Shown here: positions 1 to 38,134 of the stretch, piece after piece | Position numbering within the stretch: the stretch's first letter is position 1 | How the letters are laid out: the number at the start of each line of letters is the position of its first letter | Source: an uncultured Bacteroidia bacterium | Lineage (GTDB): Bacteria > Bacteroidota > Bacteroidia > Bacteroidales > F082 | DNA: 41,713 bases | NCBI GenBank assembly: GCA_902799345.1 | Contig: CADBZW010000022.1 | Coordinates: 1 to 41,713 of the forward strand | Reading direction: 5' to 3' | Program-made: the position numbers and the translations under genes | The notes under the pieces: generated by a model | Databases searched by the model: none | What the model was told of the DNA's origin: nothing | The model's input: only the letters and a program-made list of their open reading frames with translations

Positions 1-177
1 CTGTTCTTGAAGGCAGGCGGCATGATCCGCGTGCTGCAAAAGAGCAAACTCATCGCCGTGACGGTGAACCCAACCTCGCCCTTGGGCGTGACCTTGGACT
101 CCGACACGCTTTGTGGAAGACTTTCGGAAGCAATACAACTTCCGGTGTATGATTTAATGAAAAAGGAATGCAATTGA
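1..177 (+). CDS. kamB: KamB-like protein, C-terminal fragment
   Basis: An open frame from the window edge to the TGA at 175-177 encodes the last 58 residues of a protein, with a stretch reading AVTVNPTSPLG. The stop lies inside the start of the next gene (ATG at 168), a 10-nt overlap that implies translational coupling. In known lysine fermentation clusters the MutS-like kamC is preceded by kamB, a gene of unsettled role thought to assist the lysine aminomutases. The name here rests on that position more than on sequence. The start is outside the window. Confidence 0.55.
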   Translation: MFLKAGGMIRVLQKSKLIAVTVNPTSPLGVTLDSDTLCGRLSEAIQLPVYDLMKKECN

Positions 178-1652
178 GAGACCACATAGAATCGCCCTGC
201 GGCCTGCGCTACGTGTTCGAGCAACTCGAACTGCAAGCGGGCTATACGCGCCGTTGGATGCTCGACATGCCGATGATGCGGACAGGGGAGGAGATTGCCC
301 GTTCGTATGAGGTGCTGCGGCAGTTCGTGCGTTTCGTGGAGGAGGTCGATACACCTTATATTAATACGCTCCAGTTCCGCCTCCAGGGACTGAAGGACAT
401 CCGCACGACCATCAAAAACCTCGGACAGCAGGCCGTTTTGGATGACATCGAACTCTTCGAGGTGAAGCATCTGGCCATCTTGGCCGTCGATGTGGCGGAG
501 CGGATGAAAGCTCACGGCTTGGACAAGGCCATTGCCGTGCCCGACCTGAACGAGGTCATCACCATCCTCGACCCCGACGGATTGAAGATGGCGACCTTCT
601 ATGTCTATGACTCCTATTGCCAGGAACTGCGTGACCTGCGCGCGCAGATGCGACAGAATCCCAGCCGGCAAGAGGAACTCTTGGCCGAGTGCGCCGAGAT
701 TGAAGAAGGTGTGCGGAGGGATTTGAGCAAGCAGTTGGTTCCTTTCGCGAAGGCTTTGGAGGAAGCCCAAATCGCGATGGCGAAGATTGACATGAACCTC
801 GCCAAAGCCTTGCAGATAAAACAGTTGGGACTTTGCTTCCCGACGATTTCGAAGGATGACATCAGCCGTTACGAGGCGATGTTCCATCCGCAGGTGAAGG
901 ACGCCTTGGCGCAGCGCAAACGCGCCTTCCAGCCGGTGAGCCTCACCTTTGGGCAGAAGCCTACCTTGATTACGGGTGCCAACATGGGTGGCAAGACCGT
1001 GGTGTTGAAGACCTTGACGCTGTGCCAGTACTTGTTCCAATACGGGTTCGGCATTCCGGCACAATCGGCCGACATTGCCGTCAAGGACGAGATTTTCTTC
1101 TGCATTGGCGACGAGCAGTCCATCGAGAAGGGGCTGTCGTCGTTTGCCGCAGAGATGAAGAGCATCGATGCCGTCATCAAGGCATCGCGCGAAAACAGAA
1201 AGATAGTGGCGTTGATTGACGAGCCGGCCCGCACCACCAATCCCACTGAGGGAACGGCCTTGGTGTCGGCCTTGGTGAAGGTGTTGCGCGGCGACAATGT
1301 GAGCCTCGTCATGACCACGCATTACGATATAGAGCCGACCGATGCCCGTTGCCTCCGCGTGAAGGGCTTCGAGAACGGCACGATGAACTACGAACTCGTC
1401 GAGGTGCAAGACGGCGAAGTGCCGCACGAGGCATTGAATATCGCTGAGAGTTTGGGGATTGACAAGGAATGGATTGAGACGGCGAGGGAGATTTTAAATA
1501 TGCCGAATTCGGTACAATTAAACCTATCGAATTCGATAGGTTTAGACCCAAAGGGGTCGAATTCGACCCCTTTGAATGAGGAAGGTGAGAATAAAACCCC
1601 CTCGAATTCGAGGGGGTTTAGGAACCTCGTTGAAAAGGAAGGAGGGAAATAA
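168..1652 (+). CDS. kamC: MutS-like ATPase KamC of the lysine fermentation cluster
   Basis: A 494-residue protein with the ATPase core of the MutS family. The Walker A loop reads GANMGGKTVVLKTL (about residue 270), the Walker B region reads VALIDEPARTTNPTEG (about 345) and is followed by VMTTHY. The mismatch-recognition domain of true MutS is absent. MutS-like genes of this kind (kamC) sit beside kamD/kamE in lysine-fermenting bacteria, and a role in maintaining or reactivating the B12 aminomutase is inferred, not proven. The last ~45 residues (NSVQLNLSNS onward) are unlike the rest: they are encoded by a run of 26-bp palindromes, so the C-terminus has probably been extended by inserted repeats. 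Confidence 0.8.
   Translation: MQLRDHIESPCGLRYVFEQLELQAGYTRRWMLDMPMMRTGEEIARSYEVLRQFVRFVEEVDTPYINTLQFRLQGLKDIRTTIKNLGQQAVLDDIELFEVKHLAILAVDVAERMKAHGLDKAIAVPDLNEVITILDPDGLKMATFYVYDSYCQELRDLRAQMRQNPSRQEELLAECAEIEEGVRRDLSKQLVPFAKALEEAQIAMAKIDMNLAKALQIKQLGLCFPTISKDDISRYEAMFHPQVKDALAQRKRAFQPVSLTFGQKPTLITGANMGGKTVVLKTLTLCQYLFQYGFGIPAQSADIAVKDEIFFCIGDEQSIEKGLSSFAAEMKSIDAVIKASRENRKIVALIDEPARTTNPTEGTALVSALVKVLRGDNVSLVMTTHYDIEPTDARCLRVKGFENGTMNYELVEVQDGEVPHEALNIAESLGIDKEWIETAREILNMPNSVQLNLSNSIGLDPKGSNSTPLNEEGENKTPSNSRGFRNLVEKEGGK
1495..1520. repeat. Possible decayed CGAATTCG palindrome
   Basis: A perfect 10-bp core CCGAATTCGG (1503-1512) lies 24 nt before the first intact 26-bp palindrome and in the same reading frame of kamC. 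Extending to 26 bp gives 10 of 13 paired positions, so it looks like a degenerated member of the same family. Chance cannot be excluded. Confidence 0.45.
1519..1544. repeat. 26-bp perfect palindrome, CGAATTCG core (copy 1)
   Basis: The left half is TAAACCTAT followed by the core CGAATTCG, and the right half is its exact reverse complement. Pairing stops exactly at 13 nt per arm. It is in frame in kamC and encodes the L-S-N-S-I-G-L part of the tail. Confidence 0.9.
1549..1574. repeat. 26-bp perfect palindrome, CGAATTCG core (copy 2)
   Basis: The arm is CAAAGGGGT followed by the core CGAATTCG and the exact reverse complement of the arm. Its centre is 30 nt from that of copy 1, so the kamC frame is kept. 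The arm sequence is unrelated to that of copy 1. Confidence 0.9.
1594..1619. repeat. 26-bp perfect palindrome, CGAATTCG core (copy 3)
   Basis: The arm is AAACCCCCT followed by the core CGAATTCG and the exact reverse complement. Its centre is 45 nt from copy 2, again a multiple of three. It lies 33 nt before the kamC stop codon. Confidence 0.9.
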
Positions 1653-1653
1653 T

Positions 1654-2454
1654 ATGGCAAAGATATTAGTTAAAGATACAGAAATCACAGTGGTTCAGGT
1701 TAATAGCAGTGACTATATCTGCATAACAGATATGATGAAGGCTAAAGACGGGGTTTTTTTTGTGACTGATTGGCTTCGTAATAGGAATACTTTAGAGTAT
1801 CTTGGGATTTGGGAGAAAGTCAACAATCCAGATTTTAATTATGGCGAATTCGCCATAATTAGAAATCAGGCTGGTTTAAATAGATTCAAAATTAGTGTGA
1901 AGGACTTTGTTAGCAGAACCAATGCTATTGGCTTACAAGCAAAGGCTGGTCGATACGGTGGAACATACGCTCATAAAGACATCGCTTTTGAATTTGCCAT
2001 GTGGATTAGCCCAGAGTTCAAAGTATATCTTATACAAGAATTCCAACGCCTAAAAGAAGAAGAGCAAAAGCAACTCGGTTGGTCGGTGAAGAGGGAGTTG
2101 GCGAAGATAAACTATCATATCCACACGGATGCAATAAAAGAGAATCTTGTTCCAGAAGAGATTGACCGTTATCATGCCTCCTTGATTTACGCTAACGAAG
2201 CCGATGTGCTGAATGTGGCTCTTTTCGGGATGACAGCCAAGGAATGGCGCGACGCCAACCCCGACTTGAAGGGCAACATCCGCGACTATGCGAACATCAA
2301 CCAACTGATTTGCCTCTCGAATATGGAAAACCTCAATGCGGTCTTTATTAATAAAGGTATGCCGCAACGCGATAGACTGATTGAACTGAACAAAATCGCC
2401 ATTCAGCAGATGAAGGTGCTGGAGGGCGTTGAGGAAAGGAGAATGTTGAAATGA
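1654..2454 (+). CDS. KilA-N domain protein
   Basis: A 266-residue protein. Residues ~1-130 look like a KilA-N DNA-binding domain of the kind found in phage and mobile regions of Bacteroidales: DYICITDMMKAKDG near the start, then NAIGLQAKAGRYGGTYAHKD and FEFAMWISPEFKVYLIQEFQRLK. ATG 1654 is chosen because the homologous region starts there; it follows the kamC stop by one base and has GGAGGG upstream. A longer frame from 1576 would begin inside the palindrome tail. The fourth 26-bp palindrome lies in frame inside this gene and encodes NYGEFAII. The stop overlaps the next ATG (ATGA). Its target is unknown. Base composition is more AT-rich than in the kam genes. Confidence 0.8.
   Translation: MAKILVKDTEITVVQVNSSDYICITDMMKAKDGVFFVTDWLRNRNTLEYLGIWEKVNNPDFNYGEFAIIRNQAGLNRFKISVKDFVSRTNAIGLQAKAGRYGGTYAHKDIAFEFAMWISPEFKVYLIQEFQRLKEEEQKQLGWSVKRELAKINYHIHTDAIKENLVPEEIDRYHASLIYANEADVLNVALFGMTAKEWRDANPDLKGNIRDYANINQLICLSNMENLNAVFINKGMPQRDRLIELNKIAIQQMKVLEGVEERRMLK
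1836..1861. repeat. 26-bp perfect palindrome, CGAATTCG core (copy 4), inside the KilA-N gene
   Basis: The arm is TAATTATGG followed by the core CGAATTCG and the exact reverse complement. It has the same total length as copies 1-3. It is read in a different phase from those in kamC (GAA-TTC codons, giving Glu-Phe), so the shared feature is the DNA and not the peptide. Confidence 0.9.
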
Positions 2455-3440
2455 AAAAACTATTATTAATACTAATTGTTGGCCTTTTAGGCCTGTCGGT
2501 AAGTGCGCAAGAAGTCTTCCAACCCTATCATACCAATGCAGTGCCGTATCACGGTTATTTATATCCCGTGATTCCAGGAACAGAAGAATGGATAGCTTTG
2601 GGCAGTTATGAAGCACGACTTGAGTCCGTACAATTGCCGATGGATACTTTGAAAGATATTTCAACAACGCGGTTGCTTGAAACATGTATTTATAATCCTT
2701 TCATGATTGATGTTTGGGCTTTGGACGATCTTTTTTATAGTATGGAGCATTTAAGAGGCCGACTGAATTGTCTTGAAGAGTTTTATAATCGTGAAGATGC
2801 TTTGACGGAACTGGTTTCACTTTATTCATCACGTCAAGTAGAATTTGTATTTGAGATTCAAGACCAATATGATCGAGGAAGATATCATAGTGACTATGCA
2901 TATATGGAACTGATGATGGCTTATATGAACACCATCATGGATTTCTCTTCAAATGAAATCAAGGATGTAGTGTCTGTATTGTTGGATAAAACGGATCGAT
3001 GGGAACTTTACTATGAGGAATATGGAGCTGCATATAAAGGGGGTGTACTTCTTTTAATGGGAAGATTGTTAAACAAAGAAGGTGCTTTTGGGGATTATCA
3101 AGGAACCACGCTTTACTATTTTTTGGAGAATGGCTGTTGTATGGATATTGATAGCTGTGAAAGAGATATGGATTACATTATGCAAGTGGCGCGTAGATAT
3201 ACGGATATTGAAGAGAATGTTTCTGGTCAGAGTATAGTTGTATTCCCTAATCCGACAGATGGATTTATTAGGTTTGTTGGAAACGAAGTTGAAAGCATTA
3301 AAGCCTACAATATCCATGGTCAATTTATAAAAGGAACAAAAGACAATACACTTGACCTGTCTGATCAGGATTCAGGTACATATTTAATAAAAGTGATTAC
3401 CCCTTCGGGAGTGGTTACAAAACAAATAATAAAGAATTAA
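2451..3440 (+). CDS. Secreted protein with T9SS C-terminal sorting domain
   Basis: A 329-residue protein with a clear signal peptide (MKKLLLILIVGLLGLSVSAQ) and a C-terminal type A sorting domain of the type IX secretion system (~residues 255-329: VVFPNPTDG, then YNIHGQF, then GTYLIKVITPSGVVTKQIIKN). The middle (~25-250) is rich in Tyr, Asp and Glu and was not recognised. It should cross the outer membrane through the T9SS and be attached at the cell surface or released. The ATG overlaps the KilA-N stop (ATGA). The last part of the gene and its 3' flank are nearly the same as in the two following genes, although the body is different. Confidence 0.8.
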   Translation: MKKLLLILIVGLLGLSVSAQEVFQPYHTNAVPYHGYLYPVIPGTEEWIALGSYEARLESVQLPMDTLKDISTTRLLETCIYNPFMIDVWALDDLFYSMEHLRGRLNCLEEFYNREDALTELVSLYSSRQVEFVFEIQDQYDRGRYHSDYAYMELMMAYMNTIMDFSSNEIKDVVSVLLDKTDRWELYYEEYGAAYKGGVLLLMGRLLNKEGAFGDYQGTTLYYFLENGCCMDIDSCERDMDYIMQVARRYTDIEENVSGQSIVVFPNPTDGFIRFVGNEVESIKAYNIHGQFIKGTKDNTLDLSDQDSGTYLIKVITPSGVVTKQIIKN

Positions 3441-3499
3441 CGAACAATAAATCAATTATTTAAACAACATACTGAAAATATGGAAAGTAAATTAGGACT
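3396..3499 (+). repeat. Duplicated 3' cassette end, copy A
   Basis: Runs from the ITPSGVVTKQIIKN codons through the stop, the common leader (TAACGAACAATAAATC onward) and the first codons of kamD (ATGGAAAGTAAATTAGGACT). Near-identical copies occur at 4550-4646 and 6472-6578. Confidence 0.85.
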
Positions 3500-3575
3500 G
3501 ATTGAACTGAACAAAATCGCCATTCAGCAGATGAAGGTGCTGGAGGGCGTGGAAGAAAGGAGGATGCTGAAATGA
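3480..3575 (+). pseudogene. Chimeric remnant: kamD start fused in frame to KilA-N end
   Basis: A 31-codon open frame. Codons 1-7 (MESKLGL) equal the kamD start at 6559, and the rest (IELNKIAIQQ through RRMLK) equals the KilA-N C-terminus. The matching stretch 3496-3574 corresponds to 2375-2453, with a few changes. The joint lies at a short shared GACT. Its TGA overlaps an ATG at 3572, as in the original gene. It is probably a duplication scar, though it remains open. Confidence 0.75.
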
Positions 3576-3598
3576 GAAAACAACTAAATATCAATAAA

Positions 3599-4594
3599 AT
3601 GAAGAAGTTCCTTTTTACAATAGTTTGTTTGCTTGGATTTTTCGCCAATAGTTTTGCATACGACTTTACAGCAGTTTGCGAATCGGGACAAACTTTGTAT
3701 TACAACATCCTCAGCGAAAATGAAAAAAAGGTCGAGTTGACTTATGCAGAGTATTTTAATGCTGGATATTACCAATGGTACACCTATTATTATGAAGTGA
3801 CAGCACCTTCAGGTGATTTAGTTATTCCAGAAAAAGTGCAATACAATGGTGAGGATTATACGGTCGTCAATATAGGAGACAATGCGTTTAATGCTTGCAA
3901 TCTATCATCTGTAATCTTCCCTAATAGTATCATCTCAATCGGAGATGGGGCATTTGCCTCTGATACACATGTGTCTTTAATAGGAGAATTACATTTGCCA
4001 GATTATCTACAGACTATAGGCTCTAGAGCATTTGAATGGAATACAGCATTAACGGCTGTCTATATTCCAAACTCGGTAAGAAGTATCGGATCGTGGTCTT
4101 TTTACACTTGTGTTGGACTCAACTATCTTTATTTGGGATCGGGAGTGGAGGAAATTAGCTTCGAAGCATTTTCAAATTGTACTGGCTTAGATTCTATTAC
4201 TATCGATCGTGCCACGCCGCCAATTTGCCAATACTCAAGTTTTAGATATGTCCCCAAAGGCATTCCAGTATATGTTCCATGCAATACTATAGAATTGTAT
4301 CAAAACACTGAATTTTGGAATGAATTTACCAATTTCGTAGAGGACTGCACCTTATTCACTGACGAGTATTCAATAGATGACATCACGGTTTCATGCTATC
4401 CAAATCCTGTAACGGACTATCTGAGAATTGAGGGAGTTTATCATGCTAAAGTACAAGTTTTCAATGCTATAGGGCAGTTGGTAAAAGAAACTAAAGAAAA
4501 TGTGATTGACCTGTCGACACAAGAAGCAGGCACTTATATATTAAAGTTGATTACCCCTTCTGGAGTGGTTACAAAACAGATAATAAAGAATTAA
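3599..4594 (+). CDS. BspA-like leucine-rich-repeat surface protein with T9SS sorting domain
   Basis: 331 residues from ATG 3599, chosen because it begins the signal peptide MKKFLFTIVCLLGFFANSFA; an in-frame ATG at 3572 belongs to the duplication scar. The mature part starts YDFTAVCESGQTLYY, followed by a few BspA-type repeats (IGDNAFNACNLSSVIFPNS, IGSRAFEWNTALTAVYIPNS, ISFEAFSNCTGLDSI; ~85-215). The end is a type A T9SS sorting domain (CYPNPVTDY, VFNAIGQLVKETKEN, then ITPSGVVTKQIIKN). BspA-like proteins are surface proteins often tied to adhesion; the ligand here is unknown. It is close kin to the next gene, of which it looks like a short paralogue. Confidence 0.85.
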   Translation: MKKFLFTIVCLLGFFANSFAYDFTAVCESGQTLYYNILSENEKKVELTYAEYFNAGYYQWYTYYYEVTAPSGDLVIPEKVQYNGEDYTVVNIGDNAFNACNLSSVIFPNSIISIGDGAFASDTHVSLIGELHLPDYLQTIGSRAFEWNTALTAVYIPNSVRSIGSWSFYTCVGLNYLYLGSGVEEISFEAFSNCTGLDSITIDRATPPICQYSSFRYVPKGIPVYVPCNTIELYQNTEFWNEFTNFVEDCTLFTDEYSIDDITVSCYPNPVTDYLRIEGVYHAKVQVFNAIGQLVKETKENVIDLSTQEAGTYILKLITPSGVVTKQIIKN

Positions 4595-4646
4595 CGAACA
4601 ATAAATCAATTATTTAAACAACATAAACGAAAAATATGGAAAGTAA
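4494..4646 (+). repeat. Duplicated 3' cassette end, copy B
   Basis: The end of the BspA-like gene, the common leader and the first codons of kamD (ATGGAAAGTAA). It is nearly the same as 6416-6569. From 4647 the sequence jumps to KilA-N 3' sequence. Confidence 0.85.
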
Positions 4647-4693
4647 CAGATGAAGGTGCTGGAGGGCGTTGAGGAAAGGAGAATGCTGAAATG
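4636..4693 (+). pseudogene. Second chimeric junction, kamD start to KilA-N end
   Basis: ATGGAAAGTAA of kamD is followed at 4647 by 47 nt matching 2407-2453 of the KilA-N gene. Here the fusion is out of frame (MESNR, stop). The breakpoint differs from the one at 3496, so the two junctions arose by separate events or later decay. Confidence 0.75.
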
Positions 4694-4720
4694 AATATTA
4701 ACAAATTAAATATCAATAAA

Positions 4721-6517
4721 ATGAAGAGATTATTTGTTACGCTATTGTTAATGACAAGCTTTATGGCAAGTGGTATTGCCTATGATTTTTCGGCAGTTTG
4801 TGAATCGGGGCAAGCATTGTACTACAGCATTAATCAGGGAACAGAAACTGTTCAACTTGTAAATGGTAGTTATAACAATGGAGACCCAAGACCATCAGGA
4901 AATCTTGTTATTCCTGCTACGGTCGAACATGATGGAATAACTTACACGATTGTTTCTGTAGGATATTCGGCTTTTAAAGATTGTATTGGATTACATTCAG
5001 TCGTGTTTTCAGAACCTTCGTGTGTGACTTTGTTATCTGATTACAGTTTTCAGGGTTGTACAGGTCTCGTTTCTGTAAATTTGCCAAATTCTCTCGAAAA
5101 AATTAACAGCTATGCATTTAAGAAATGCTCTGCATTAAATTCTATCGATTTGCCAAATGGTATTGTCAGCATTGGTTATCAAGCATTCATTAATTGTGTT
5201 AGTGTAGAAACAGTAGAACTACCTGAATCATTGACCGAAATGGGTAACGAGGCTTTTCGTTATTGTACTTCGTTACATTCTATTGTTATTCCTAATTCTA
5301 TTGTTACCATTGGTAACTATTCGTTTGAAGGTTGTAACAGATTATCTAGTGTTGTTATTGGGAACTCTACAGAATCAATTGGAATGAATTCGTTTGCAAA
5401 CTGTTCGGAGTTGCAAAGTGTGGTTTTTGAGGATGCATCTTCATTAACCACCATTAGTGATAATGCTTTTGCATCATGTATAGCATTGACATCAATTGAA
5501 TTCCCTCAATCATTGGTCAGAATAAAATCCGACGCTTTTAAAAAATGTACTTCATTGAAGAGAATAGTTCTTCCGAATAGTGTTGAATATGTTGAATCTC
5601 AAGCTTTCATCAATTGTTCAAGTGTAGAGGAAATAAGTCTTTCAAATTCTTTAAAAGAAATAGGTAATTCAGCGTTTAGGAATATTCCTCTTATGAGTAT
5701 TGTTTATATTCCTAATGATGTCATTAGCATTAATGATTATGCTTTTGCCTCCTGCACGGGTCTTCAAAAAGTAATTATAGGGAATAAAGTAACAACTGTT
5801 GGGAATTATGTGTTTGAAGGTTGTTCTAATTTGGAGTTTGTTGAGATAGGATGTAATTTGACAAATATCGGATCGAACACTTTTAAGGGAACAAATTTGC
5901 AATCAATGGTAATAAAAGCAGCCTTGCCGCCAATTATTAAAACCAACAGTTTCCAAGGTGTTAGCAGGGAGATACCTATCACCATTCCCTGTGGCTCATT
6001 GGAAAGATATCAGAGTAAGGATTTTTGGAATGAGTTTACTAACTACTCTGAAGATTATATGTTTTCAATAACTGTTCTATCTGAAGATGAAGAATTGGGG
6101 ACTGTAAGTATTATCCAAGAACCAGTGACTTGTGATGATATGACTGTAAAGGTAGAGGCATTAGAAAAGAATGGTTCAGTTTTCAAAGGTTGGGAATCTA
6201 ATGGTTTATTTGTTTCAAATGACAATCCTTATACTTTCACTTTGGAGGAAGATTTGATTTTGGTTGCAAGATTTTCAGGATATGGCATAGAGGAACCAAG
6301 CATAGAAAGTATGGAAATTTATCCGAATCCTACTAATGGAGTTGCTCTCGTTGAGACCGTTGGAATAGAAAAGGTTGAAGTATATAGTGTTACAGGCCAG
6401 TTGGTGAAAGAATCAAAAGAAAATGTGATTGACCTGTCGACACTAGAAGCAGGCACCTATATATTAAAGGTTATTACCCCTTCTGGAGTGGTTACAAAAC
6501 AGATAATAAAGAATTAA
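4721..6517 (+). CDS. Large BspA-like leucine-rich-repeat surface protein with T9SS sorting domain
   Basis: 598 residues from ATG 4721 (signal peptide MKRLFVTLLLMTSFMASGIA; the ATG at 4691 would add ten residues before it). About fifteen BspA-type repeats of ~23 residues follow (for example LVSVNLPNSLEKINSYAFKK and LHSIVIPNSIVTIGNYSFEG), to ~residue 430. Next is a domain with SITVLSEDEELGTVSI and FKGWESNG, like the divergent InlB B-repeat (~440-520). The T9SS type A sorting domain ends the protein (IYPNPTNG, VYSVTGQLVKESKEN, then ITPSGVVTKQIIKN). Predicted to be exposed on the cell surface. Its ligand is unknown. It lies directly upstream of kamD. Confidence 0.87.
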   Translation: MKRLFVTLLLMTSFMASGIAYDFSAVCESGQALYYSINQGTETVQLVNGSYNNGDPRPSGNLVIPATVEHDGITYTIVSVGYSAFKDCIGLHSVVFSEPSCVTLLSDYSFQGCTGLVSVNLPNSLEKINSYAFKKCSALNSIDLPNGIVSIGYQAFINCVSVETVELPESLTEMGNEAFRYCTSLHSIVIPNSIVTIGNYSFEGCNRLSSVVIGNSTESIGMNSFANCSELQSVVFEDASSLTTISDNAFASCIALTSIEFPQSLVRIKSDAFKKCTSLKRIVLPNSVEYVESQAFINCSSVEEISLSNSLKEIGNSAFRNIPLMSIVYIPNDVISINDYAFASCTGLQKVIIGNKVTTVGNYVFEGCSNLEFVEIGCNLTNIGSNTFKGTNLQSMVIKAALPPIIKTNSFQGVSREIPITIPCGSLERYQSKDFWNEFTNYSEDYMFSITVLSEDEELGTVSIIQEPVTCDDMTVKVEALEKNGSVFKGWESNGLFVSNDNPYTFTLEEDLILVARFSGYGIEEPSIESMEIYPNPTNGVALVETVGIEKVEVYSVTGQLVKESKENVIDLSTLEAGTYILKVITPSGVVTKQIIKN

Positions 6518-6578
6518 CGAACAATAAATCAATTATTTAAACAACATAAACAAATAATATGGAAAGTAAATTAGGACT
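6416..6578 (+). repeat. Duplicated 3' cassette end, copy C (adjoins intact kamD)
   Basis: The same gene end and leader as copies A and B, but running on into the complete kamD gene. It is therefore the likely source of the kamD start fragments found at 3480 and 4636. Confidence 0.85.
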
Positions 6579-8112
6579 TGATTTTAAGAAAGTGGAGTAT
6601 GCCAGAGGGCTGGCGAAGAACATCGCTGACGATGTGCAGGCCTTCTGCGAGCAATACACCACGGTGGCCGTGGAGCGCACCCTCGCCCGACTGATGGGCA
6701 TCGACGGCGTGGACGAAAGCGACGTGCCGCTGCCCAATGTGGTGGTGGACGCCATCAAGGACAAAGGCGTGCTCGGCGAGGGCATCCTGTTCTTCATCGC
6801 CAACGCCATGATCCAGACGGGCCTCAAACCCCAAGAGATTGCCGAGAAGGTGGCCAAAGGCGAACTCGACATCACTAAGGTGGTGACCCGCGACCAGAAA
6901 CAGATTGCCGCCACGCTGCAACCTGTCATCGACGAGAGCCTCACGCGCATCCGCACCCGCCGCGCCCGCCGCGAGCATTACCTCGAAACCATCGGCGAAG
7001 GCCCCAAGCCATACCTTTATATTATCGTGGCCACGGGTAACATCTACGAGGATGTGGTGCAGGCCCAGGCCGGTGCCCGTCAAGGAGCCGACATTATCGC
7101 CGTGATCCGTACCACGGGCCAGAGCCTCTTGGACTATGTGCCTTACGGCGCCACCACCGAGGGCTTCGGCGGCACCTTCGCCACGCAGGAGAACTTCCGC
7201 ATCATGCGTAAGGCCCTGGACGAAGTGGGCGAGGAGGTAGGCCGTTACATCCGCCTCTGCAACTACTGCTCGGGTCTCTGCATGCCCGAAATCGCCATCA
7301 TGGGCGCCTTCGAAGGCCTCGATGTCATGCTGAACGACGCCCTCTACGGCATCCTGTTCCGCGACATCAACATGCAGCGCACCCTCATCGACCAATACAT
7401 GAGCCGTATCATCAACGGCTTCGCGGGCGTCATCATCAACACGGGTGAGGACAACTACCTGACCACCGCCGATGCCGTGGAAGCCGCACATACCGTTTTG
7501 GCCTCCGACCTCATCAACGAGCAGTTGGCCAAGATCGCCGGTCTGCCCGAAGAGCAGATGGGCTTGGGCCACGCCTTCGAGATGGACCCGATGCTCGAGA
7601 ACGGCTTCCTTATGGAACTCGCACAGGCACAGATGACCCGCGAGATCTTCCCCAACGCGCCGCTGAAATACATGCCGCCCACCAAGTTCATGACGGGCAA
7701 CATCTTCCGTGGCCACATCCAAGATGCGCTGTTCAACATCATCGGCATCTGGACGCACCAAGGCCTGCAACTGCTGGGTATGCCCACCGAGGCCATCCAC
7801 ACGCCGTTCATGAGCGACCGTTACCTCTCCATCGAGAACGCCCGCTACATCTTCAACAACATGAAGAACATCGGCGACGAGATGGAATTCAAGGAGGGTG
7901 GCATCTGCCGCAAACGCGCCCACGAAGTGCTCGACAACACCATCAAGCTGCTTGAGGAACTCGTCAAGGAAGGCCTGTTCACCGCTTTGGAGAAAGGTAT
8001 CTTCGGCGATGTGAAACGCCCGAAGAACGGTGGCAAGGGCCTGGCCGGCGTGACGCTGAAAGCCGAGAATTATTTTAATCCGTTTATCGAATTAATGAAA
8101 GGGAAAAAGTAA
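6559..8112 (+). CDS. kamD: Lysine 5,6-aminomutase alpha subunit
   Basis: A 517-residue protein matching KamD in length and pattern (ARGLAKNIADDVQAFCEQYTT, LYIIVATGNIYEDVVQAQAGARQGAD, YCSGLCMPEIAIMGAFEGLDVMLNDALYG). With KamE it forms the adenosylcobalamin- and PLP-dependent enzyme that moves the terminal amino group of beta-lysine (giving 3,5-diaminohexanoate) or D-lysine (giving 2,5-diaminohexanoate) in anaerobic lysine fermentation. The alpha subunit carries most of the TIM barrel. The stop overlaps the kamE start (TAATG), so the two are coupled. The gene is GC-rich, in contrast to the insert before it. The promoter context has changed because the T9SS gene now supplies its upstream leader. 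Confidence 0.95.
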   Translation: MESKLGLDFKKVEYARGLAKNIADDVQAFCEQYTTVAVERTLARLMGIDGVDESDVPLPNVVVDAIKDKGVLGEGILFFIANAMIQTGLKPQEIAEKVAKGELDITKVVTRDQKQIAATLQPVIDESLTRIRTRRARREHYLETIGEGPKPYLYIIVATGNIYEDVVQAQAGARQGADIIAVIRTTGQSLLDYVPYGATTEGFGGTFATQENFRIMRKALDEVGEEVGRYIRLCNYCSGLCMPEIAIMGAFEGLDVMLNDALYGILFRDINMQRTLIDQYMSRIINGFAGVIINTGEDNYLTTADAVEAAHTVLASDLINEQLAKIAGLPEEQMGLGHAFEMDPMLENGFLMELAQAQMTREIFPNAPLKYMPPTKFMTGNIFRGHIQDALFNIIGIWTHQGLQLLGMPTEAIHTPFMSDRYLSIENARYIFNNMKNIGDEMEFKEGGICRKRAHEVLDNTIKLLEELVKEGLFTALEKGIFGDVKRPKNGGKGLAGVTLKAENYFNPFIELMKGKK

Positions 8113-8900
8113 TGAGCGAAGGATTGTATTCAATGGAGGCCAAGAACTATGACAAGACCTTAGACCTCACCAAGATAAAGCCCTACGGCGACACCATGAA
8201 CGACGGCAAGATGCAGTTGAGCTTCACGCTGCCCGTGCCATGCGGTGCCGAGGCCGTGGAAGCCGCCAAGTTGCTGCTGAAGAAGATGGGATTGGAGAAC
8301 CCCAGCGTGGTGTATTACAAGGAGTTGACACCTGGTTTCACTTTCGTCAACTGCTATGGTAGTTGCACCCACACGGTCGACTATTCGACAATCTACGTGC
8401 CGAAGGTGGAATCCACGACGATGGACATGTACGAGACCGACAAGTACATCAAGGAGAACATCGGTCGTAAGATTGTCATCGTCGGCGCCTCGACGGGCAC
8501 CGATGCCCACACCGTGGGTATCGACGCGATCATGAACATGAAGGGCTATGCTGGCCACTACGGACTGGAGCGTTATGAGATGATTGACGCTTACAACCTC
8601 GGCTCGCAGGTGCCCAACGAGGAGCTTATCGCCAAGGGCATTGAGCTTCACGCTGATGCGCTACTCGTTTCGCAGACCGTGACGCAGAAGGATGTCCACA
8701 TCCACAACATGACCAACTTCATCGAGTTGATGGAGGCCGAAGGCCTGCGCGACAAGATGATCTGCTGCTGTGGCGGCGCCCGAATCACGCACGAACTGGC
8801 CAAGGAACTGGGCTTCGACGCCGGCTTCGGCATGAACACCTACGCCGACGATGTCGCTTCGTTTGTGGTTCAGGAGATGGTAAAACGAGGCATGAAGTAA
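8112..8900 (+). CDS. kamE: Lysine 5,6-aminomutase beta subunit
   Basis: 262 residues. The B12-binding Rossmann domain shows the base-off DxHxxG motif as D131-A-H133-T-V-G136, where His133 would be the lower cobalt ligand. Lys144 (in MNMKGYAGH) matches the residue known in the characterised enzyme to hold PLP as an internal aldimine. Residues ~1-90 form the dimerisation part. The C-terminal part contains CCCGGARITHELAKELGFDAGFG. It starts on the last base of the kamD stop codon and works as a complex with KamD. Confidence 0.95.
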   Translation: MSEGLYSMEAKNYDKTLDLTKIKPYGDTMNDGKMQLSFTLPVPCGAEAVEAAKLLLKKMGLENPSVVYYKELTPGFTFVNCYGSCTHTVDYSTIYVPKVESTTMDMYETDKYIKENIGRKIVIVGASTGTDAHTVGIDAIMNMKGYAGHYGLERYEMIDAYNLGSQVPNEELIAKGIELHADALLVSQTVTQKDVHIHNMTNFIELMEAEGLRDKMICCCGGARITHELAKELGFDAGFGMNTYADDVASFVVQEMVKRGMK

Positions 8901-8923
8901 AATGTTATTGAACAATGAATAGA

Positions 8924-9068
8924 AACTACAGATTACACAGATTATACAGATGCCGTGACGTGAATTTTGCAGCTAAAGCTGCGGATTTGTACAGAAATCT
9001 GTGCAATCCGCAACGAAGTTGCAAAATTACCCACATTGTATTCTGTAAAATCTGTTTAATCTGTAGTT
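8924..9068. repeat. Nested inverted-repeat element between kamE and the CoA-transferase gene
   Basis: The outer arms are AACTACAGATTA (8924-8935) and its complement (9057-9068), extended by ACAGATT (8937-8943) with AATCTGT (9049-9055) and TACAGA (8945-8950) with TCTGTA (9042-9047). Inside are AATTTTGCA (8963-8971) with TGCAAAATT (9020-9028), and GCGGATT (8981-8987) with AATCCGC (9005-9011). The whole can fold into one long branched hairpin, like a small non-coding mobile repeat. No open frame. Confidence 0.8.
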
Positions 9069-14685: not shown

Positions 14686-14720
14686 GTAGAGACGTAGCGC
14701 GCTACGTCTCTACTTTTTTT
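14686..14720 (+). terminator. 28-nt GTAGAGACG palindrome followed by T-run
   Basis: GTAGAGACGTAGCG and its exact reverse complement occupy 14686-14713, followed by TTTTTTT. It works on paper as a Rho-independent terminator for the etf end of the operon, and is one of four 28-nt members of a dispersed palindrome family in this window. Confidence 0.75.
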
Positions 14721-38106: not shown

Positions 38107-38134
38107 GTAGAGGCGCAAAATTTTGCGTCTCTAC
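38107..38134. repeat. 28-nt GTAGAG palindrome (GCAAAA subtype)
   Basis: GTAGAGGCGCAAAA pairs with TTTTGCGTCTCTAC, with one G-T pair. It begins 2 nt after the hrb stop. The next gene starts at 38155. Confidence 0.85.

Follow-up and report, generated by a model that had tools for sequence, protein, structure and literature searches.

Palindromic words inside KilA-N genes of the PDC-S22 family, in an upstream array and on phages: putative recognition sites of a candidate defence protein

The contig CADBZW010000022.1 of an uncultured Bacteroidia bacterium (Bacteroidales, F082; assembly GCA_902799345.1), analysed here over its whole length of 41,713 nucleotides (nt) and referred to below as the window, carries a KilA-N domain gene that matches the PADLOC defence candidate PDC-S22, holds a perfect palindrome within the codons of that domain, and is preceded by an array of palindromes with the same core, CGAATTCG. 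In these sites the core is flanked by a variable stretch, termed the word, and by its reverse complement. The sites and their spacing, a symmetry kept at the level of DNA, a repertoire of words shared between genes, arrays and phages, viral sites in loci where the gene was not detected, and an association of array and gene at the kam locus were all computed directly. The palindromes are well supported by sequence as putative recognition sites of PDC-S22 proteins. We favour, with slightly less than even confidence and by analogy with known systems, a reading in which the words are recognised by these proteins, the internal copy denoting self and the copies in arrays and phages conferring immunity to other alleles. 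PDC-S22 is already known as a candidate; the open-access literature searched yielded neither a description of such an element nor an account tying palindromes or words to PDC-S22. The gene and its sites are as follows.

1495 to 1520, no strand: degenerate array site TAAATATGC-CGAATTCG-GTACAATTA, 10 bp perfect, matching TAAW-N5-CGAATTCG-N5-WTTA
1519 to 1544, no strand: array palindrome with the word ACCTAT, perfect over 26 bp, core-to-core 24 bp from the preceding site
1549 to 1574, no strand: array palindrome with the word AGGGGT, perfect over 26 bp, outer CAA in place of TAA
1594 to 1619, no strand: array palindrome with the word CCCCCT, perfect over 26 bp, centre 50 bp before the KilA-N match
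1654 to 2454, forward strand: KilA-N domain gene, 266 amino acids (aa), PADLOC candidate PDC-S22, with PF04383, PDC-S22 and PHROG 2657 matches
1836 to 1861, no strand: intragenic palindrome with the word TTATGG, perfect over 26 bp, within the KilA-N domain codons

An earlier, sequence-only reading of this DNA had described the four perfect palindromes, and each was confirmed with 13 complementary bases per arm. Its view that they are not random also held: when the window was shuffled 50 times (first order), no arm exceeded 11, a length attained in a single shuffle, against the 13 observed, and a chance origin for the four is rejected. The source genome contains 39 CGAATTCG sites, five of them at the KilA-N locus, and the remaining 34, all of which were examined, have arms of only 4 to 7. 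The additional site at 1495 to 1520 belongs to the class of upstream sites (locus L018) and has unequal half-sites, TAAATATGC and TAATTGTAC, around CGAATTCG. The last array palindrome stops 34 bp short of the KilA-N start codon, and the intragenic palindrome contributes codons to the KilA-N domain segment F61-N-Y-G-E65-F66-A-I-I. Array words were found again inside other KilA-N genes: ACCTAT is the internal word of others, including those of loci L029 and L094, and AGGGGT lies within the gene of locus L042. The protein matches Pfam PF04383 (KilA-N; E 6.1e-25, 87.6 bits, above the gathering cut-off of 23.8) and, over its full length, the PADLOC model PDC-S22 (E 1.3e-130, residues 3-263 on model positions 6-271 of 281), an entry that carries no description. 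A search for solved structural relatives returned a single match, at E 0.65 and unrelated. The link to a KilA-N / PDC-S22 gene, the conserved codon position, the near-confinement of the bacterial sites examined to this gene or its remnants, and the solitary viral sites, all described below, were absent from the earlier reading.

To place the intragenic palindrome in its family, we drew relatives from four sources: 60 genomes, of which 26 had a match; 393 genomes of the order, of which 136 did, the source genome being counted in both; the best 80 of 581 loci in contigs of named genomes, with titles referring to Bacteroidota, Treponema, Clostridia, Bacilli, Proteobacteria and others; and 56 viral loci. 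Of the 209 KilA-N open reading frames (ORFs) obtained, 24 had no motif and 15 duplicated others exactly; 170 non-identical genes remained once these were set aside. In these 170 genes, from several phyla, the palindrome is centred on the Glu-Phe codons; Glu65 and Phe66 did not vary among the first 23 proteins, and in a set of 90 their conservation was at least 90%. Pairing extends to at least 11 of 13 positions in 163 of the 170 and to all 13 in 66, and the family-wide unit can be written TTTTAA-W-N5-CGAATTCG-N5'-W'-TTAAAA, occupied by many different words (25 distinct perfectly symmetric ones among the 66 arm pairs). Uninterrupted arms measured 16 nt in 35 genes, 13 in 20, 7 in 20 and 2 in 21, with a maximum of 19; the 13-nt arms mostly arise where the Lys codon AAA beside the site has turned into Arg AGA, and in all 21 genes with 2-nt arms TTC has become TTT, the outer pairs being retained in most.

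The amino acids on either side of the site vary in step, for example V/D, L/E, I/D, G/A and T/G. At third codon positions within the arms, 1583 of 1694 bases were paired, as compared to 793 predicted from codon usage given the partner (z 43, with genes taken as independent). Since these synonymous bases pair far beyond expectation, the constraint that maintains arm symmetry acts on the DNA. Four further loci show variations on this arrangement. The KilA-N match exceeds one gene in length at L122, L068 and L134, and at L122 a pair of intragenic palindromes, separated by 344 bp, carry different words, as would be expected if N-terminal domains are swapped. On the phage locus L329, a KilA-N gene bears an imperfect intragenic site with the words CCGCCT and CCGTGT.

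The spacing of the element is fixed as well. Among the 393 genomes of the order, the 26-bp pattern TAAW-N5-CGAATTCG-N5-WTTA was found in 106, whilst a control with one N fewer per arm (a 24-bp unit) was found in a single genome, at an asymmetric match; the scan of same-order relatives thus came out in favour of what the sequence-only reading had proposed. That reading had taken the unit to be 26 bp, which is so in the window, whilst across the family the symmetric unit is often longer, as the 16-nt arms show. It had also described the arms as wholly different: some 5 nt are indeed variable, whereas most arms of the family, and those of two of the four palindromes in the window, have TAA(A/T) at the outer end. 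Its broader suggestion of a defined element or binding-site family with a diversified flank is borne out by the fixed spacing and by symmetry beyond chance, and its binding part remains a prediction. Across the phylum, 21 of 296 Bacteroidota genomes matched, the window's own included, and the reversed pattern gave none. Twenty of the 24 sites beyond the source genome were examined, of which 17 lay in a KilA-N gene or fragment and three elsewhere. Ten seemingly symmetric sites, which we picked ourselves among the order-scan matches listed because no KilA-N match was given for them, all proved to lie inside KilA-N fragments; three asymmetric matches of that scan (L240, L255 and L258) did not.

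Outside the gene, we distinguished 37 upstream and 85 solitary sites, and compared their words with the intragenic repertoire of 71. Upstream half-sites carried a repertoire word in 39 of 49 cases, against 10.1 (standard deviation, sd, 2.5) for column-shuffled words, and solitary half-sites did so in 92 of 170 against 20.8 (sd 3.9), shuffles that do not model relatedness. Solitary sites are mainly viral: 82 of the 85 fall on loci from a scan that returned at least 120 stretches of viral sequence, of which 118 loci were examined, and in 78 of these 118 a solitary site occurs without a KilA-N match in the locus (these viral counts, and the viral part of the solitary words, are among the matches listed). 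When whole viral records were searched for KilA-N, for 42 of the 59 then known, 40 had no match and two had a weak match to another protein, although such records are often fragments and may have lost the gene with the rest of the genome. A control core, CGATATCG, yielded 22 stretches in the entire viral collection as compared to at least 120 for CGAATTCG, and its sites there showed no symmetry. Half-sites around CGAATTCG agreed at 3.98 of 6 positions (82 distinct sites among the matches listed, intragenic ones included), those around CGATATCG at 1.84 of 6 (19 sites); for the solitary sites taken alone, again among the matches listed, agreement was 3.91 versus 2.11 for random arm pairing.

One phage site is conserved with unequal halves. 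This site, TAATTCCAT / TAAACCCGT, is identical at 28 of 28 positions between locus L315 and loci L333, L350 and L369 (the latter three closely related to each other), and the flanks agree at only 205-214 of 271 positions. In other phage pairs, such as L277/L378, L280/L360 and L263/L365, the site differs at one to three of 28 positions. Preservation of unequal half-sites fits recognition of each half-site better than formation of a hairpin. At locus L277, homology to the Acinetobacter phage fLi-Aba02 starts directly past the site; this locus had no match among E. coli genomes, and locus L314 had none in the phage collection.

We also compared the words with the protein sequences. Intragenic arms were identical in 74% of 53 gene pairs whose sequences past the site agree at 95% or more, and in 0.5% of 5,306 pairs at 60-70% downstream identity; the 7% recorded for 382 pairs at 30-50% comes from a bin suspected of frame-shifted comparisons. 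Outside the palindrome, residues 79 and 82 are Lys/Val in 38 of 40 genes with TTATGG, Thr/Pro in all 20 genes with ACCCCT, CCCCCT or ACCTAT, and Val/Pro in all nine with ACTGGT. In an identity-matched comparison, residue 79 was common to 84% of same-word pairs versus 20% of different-word pairs, a link uncorrected for relatedness, and other columns showed the opposite trend, as matching on identity forces. Residues 79 and 82 thus largely follow the word, which may serve as a lead to the residues that set specificity, and not as proof.

In the window, the array and the gene lie at the kam locus.

168 to 1652, forward strand: kamC-like ATPase ORF (NF052383 KamC, E 2e-122), matched up to residue 443
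6559 to 8112, forward strand: lysine 5,6-aminomutase alpha subunit, kamD (PF09043, E 2.4e-274), the other flank of the insertion site

The last ~50 codons of the kamC-like ORF run through the palindrome array. We compared 30 kamC loci of the genus, in 28 of which the end of kamC could be located, in views of 39 to 1,500 bases, which could let a gene farther along escape notice. A full KilA-N gene was in view at 10 of the 28 loci, nine of them with upstream sites and one (L393) with the intragenic site only, and a partial match was present at three more (L382, L384 and L385), all with sites. No match was in view at the remaining 15, of which 12 were also devoid of sites. The array and the KilA-N gene are therefore associated at the kam locus. 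In seven of the 12 site-less loci (L398-L404), kamC stops 3-9 nt past its conserved end and kamD starts 30 nt past it, an arrangement that looks like an empty insertion site. Between the KilA-N gene and kamD, positions 2451-6517 of the window encode three Por_Secre_tail proteins, two with BspA-type leucine-rich repeats, which sit within a lysine-fermentation gene cluster. The 3' end of the KilA-N gene (about 2380-2454) recurs ~1.1 kb downstream (about 3500-3574), with the first 20 bases of kamD copied ahead of it at 3480; the pattern resembles a duplication that flanks secreted-protein genes inserted later, and isolated C-terminal remnants of KilA-N genes also occur in other members of the genus.

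Palindromes of other kinds were observed in passing. The window contains a perfect 28-bp palindrome with another core, GTAGAGACGTAGCGCGCTACGTCTCTAC, at 14686-14713, followed by a T run, and a similar GTAGAGACG...CGTCTCTAC palindrome lies in locus L034. Elsewhere in the source genome (L015:2660-2772), three consecutive palindromes with the core CAAAATTTTG form an unrelated repeat family, and a short palindrome at 38114-38127 of the window shares this core.

We propose that the words would be recognition sites, in double-stranded DNA, of the PDC-S22 KilA-N proteins. Each half-site, TTAA-W-N5-CG, may be recognised by a single subunit of a symmetric protein, with W-N5 as an allele-specific word. 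A gene bearing its own word in the codons of its DNA-binding domain would mark as self any DNA that carries it, and an upstream array or a solitary phage site bearing the words of other alleles would protect its carrier from those alleles. Binding of word by protein, the specificity of that binding, and immunity rather than regulation as its outcome are what we infer. A wider proposal, which we hold more tentatively, is that of a general DNA password between bacteria and phages, in which the recognition word of a widespread defence family is embedded in the codons of the very domain that reads DNA, elements gather the words of other alleles in arrays, and phages carry words, sometimes as unequal half-words, and so pass as self.

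The closest parallel is BstA, which an excerpt of Owen et al. (2021; PMC8585504) describes as an abortive-infection phage-defence protein with a KilA-N-like N-terminal domain and a cognate element, aba. According to the same excerpt, aba is DNA-based, lies in its own locus and provides self-immunity, each BstA variant having its own cognate element; it spans 63 bp across the start codon and has CCCGCC terminal direct repeats (PMC8585504). The two arrangements share a defence protein (here a candidate) and a KilA-N-type domain. The present family has a conserved intragenic DNA element, putatively cognate, which differs from aba in being an inverted repeat ~195 nt inside the gene, accompanied by arrays and solitary phage copies. 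A DNA-binding defence candidate with a symmetric word in its own gene, and with the words of other alleles upstream and on phages, is the picture that cognate self-immunity elements would give. Homology to BstA of phage BTP1 was not detected (BLASTP E 0.088; hhalign probability 0.2%), and membership of the BstA family is rejected by sequence, the PADLOC and PHROG families being separate as well. For want of detectable protein homology, we would say that the KilA-N candidate may work like BstA/aba, and not that it is a BstA. REP/BIME and Rickettsia palindromic elements are short palindromes found between and inside genes; the sites described here differ from them in having a fixed core around which symmetric words can be exchanged, in keeping to a single partner gene, and in not being dispersed over their own chromosome. 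KilA-N / Ant-type phage regulators (PHROG 2657, 129 and 63) share the KilA-N domain and the association with phages, and no intragenic cognate site was found for them in the open-access literature searched.

Several observations weigh against the self-marking reading. PDC-S22 is a phage-defence candidate by name only, and the one paper found to name it, PMC12813430, groups it in an excerpt with unvalidated systems and reports co-occurrence alone. In the excerpt of PMC8585504, a single chromosomal copy of aba is inactive in trans, and the length and direct repeats of aba do not resemble the present palindromes. The words TTCCCC, AAGCAT and TCCCAT carry mixed residues at 79 and 82, and among the matches listed 27 of the 82 viral solitary sites hold no repertoire word, being either chance matches or words that were not sampled. 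The relatedness left in the word shuffles and in the residue comparison counts on the same side, as does the fragmentary state of the viral records. In bacterial genomes few solitary sites were observed (3 of 20 phylum-scan loci, none of the ten picked places and none in the source genome), which counts against proviruses commonly profiting from them, unless such proviruses are rare or our patterns miss their sites. The protein also matches PHROG 2657, labelled 'transcriptional regulator' (E 7e-61). This label belongs to the strongest rival, namely that the KilA-N protein regulates transcription in mobile elements, the upstream and intragenic palindromes being its control sites, for repression or looping, and the phage sites marking promoters under its control. 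We consider this unlikely, although the position of the sites is compatible with it: the closest upstream site precedes the KilA-N match by 31-72 bp at 17 of 18 loci, and certain phage sites stand at gene starts, one at L277 with its centre 27 nt before a NinB-like gene and another, the unequal site above, with its centre 13 nt before a 432-aa ORF (L302, L333), which we take to be terminase-like from its motif. An upstream site is present at only 18 loci, however, compared with 168 intragenic sites, and the upstream word is the gene's own at 5 of 31 sites (two at L020, one each at L021, L022 and L023), as compared to 3.6 by permutation; autoregulation through the own word is rejected on this lack of enrichment. 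Phage sites moreover lie beside unrelated genes, 19 of 60 among the matches listed falling inside an ATG-started ORF of at least 100 aa, and phages without the gene would, in our judgement, have little reason to retain its operators.

The palindromes could instead be selfish repeats that copy themselves into new places, the copy in the gene being merely one insertion. Their presence in unrelated phage settings and in the reading-frame extension of kamC would fit such mobility, and so would three kam loci (L388, L392 and L395) that have sites and no KilA-N gene in view, which are also a difficulty for self-marking. We nevertheless find this explanation improbable: in the bacterial genomes examined the sites stay with the gene (10 of the 10 picked places, 17 of the 20 phylum-scan loci) apart from the three asymmetric matches above, the gene copy occupies the same codon position in the 170 motif genes, and unequal solitary sites that include a repertoire word tend to have such words on both sides, in 9 of 13 where the halves differ once (27% for random neighbours of such words) and in 15 of 29 where they differ at two or more positions (15%). 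Still less probable are transcript stem-loops with a fixed AAUU loop that control translation, decay or termination. The RNA can fold, the array at -55.1 kcal/mol (z -7.8) and the intragenic site at -20.6 kcal/mol (z -5.6); yet the 152 mismatches in imperfect intragenic pairs (43 G.U, 51 A.C, 58 other) reveal no wobble bias on the sense strand, and an RNA hairpin is rejected as the main function on that account. The unequal halves of the conserved phage site speak against it too, as does the recurrence of words as units in genes, arrays and phages, which pairing alone would not require, and positions 1-9000 of the window contain no Rfam family at gathering score. Template switching during replication might keep a functionless quasi-palindrome perfect as a mutational by-product, and close relatives do differ on both arms together (ACCTAT in L029, ACCCCT in L133, 95% identical downstream); it leaves the fixed spacing, the core constant across phyla, the solitary phage sites, the shared words and the conserved unequal half-sites unexplained, and of all the explanations weighed here we give it the least credence.

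If the self-marking reading is true, a widespread but still unvalidated defence candidate would gain a mechanism, a code for self and non-self, and a guide to which phages may be immune to which allele. It would also bear on the question raised by BstA, at least in the excerpt of PMC8585504, of the means by which a defence protein is silenced by a short DNA element. The PDC-S22 gene would then be unusual in that a single DNA segment both encodes a DNA-binding domain and may be read by the resulting protein, so that the specificity of the protein and its label of self would be inherited as one.

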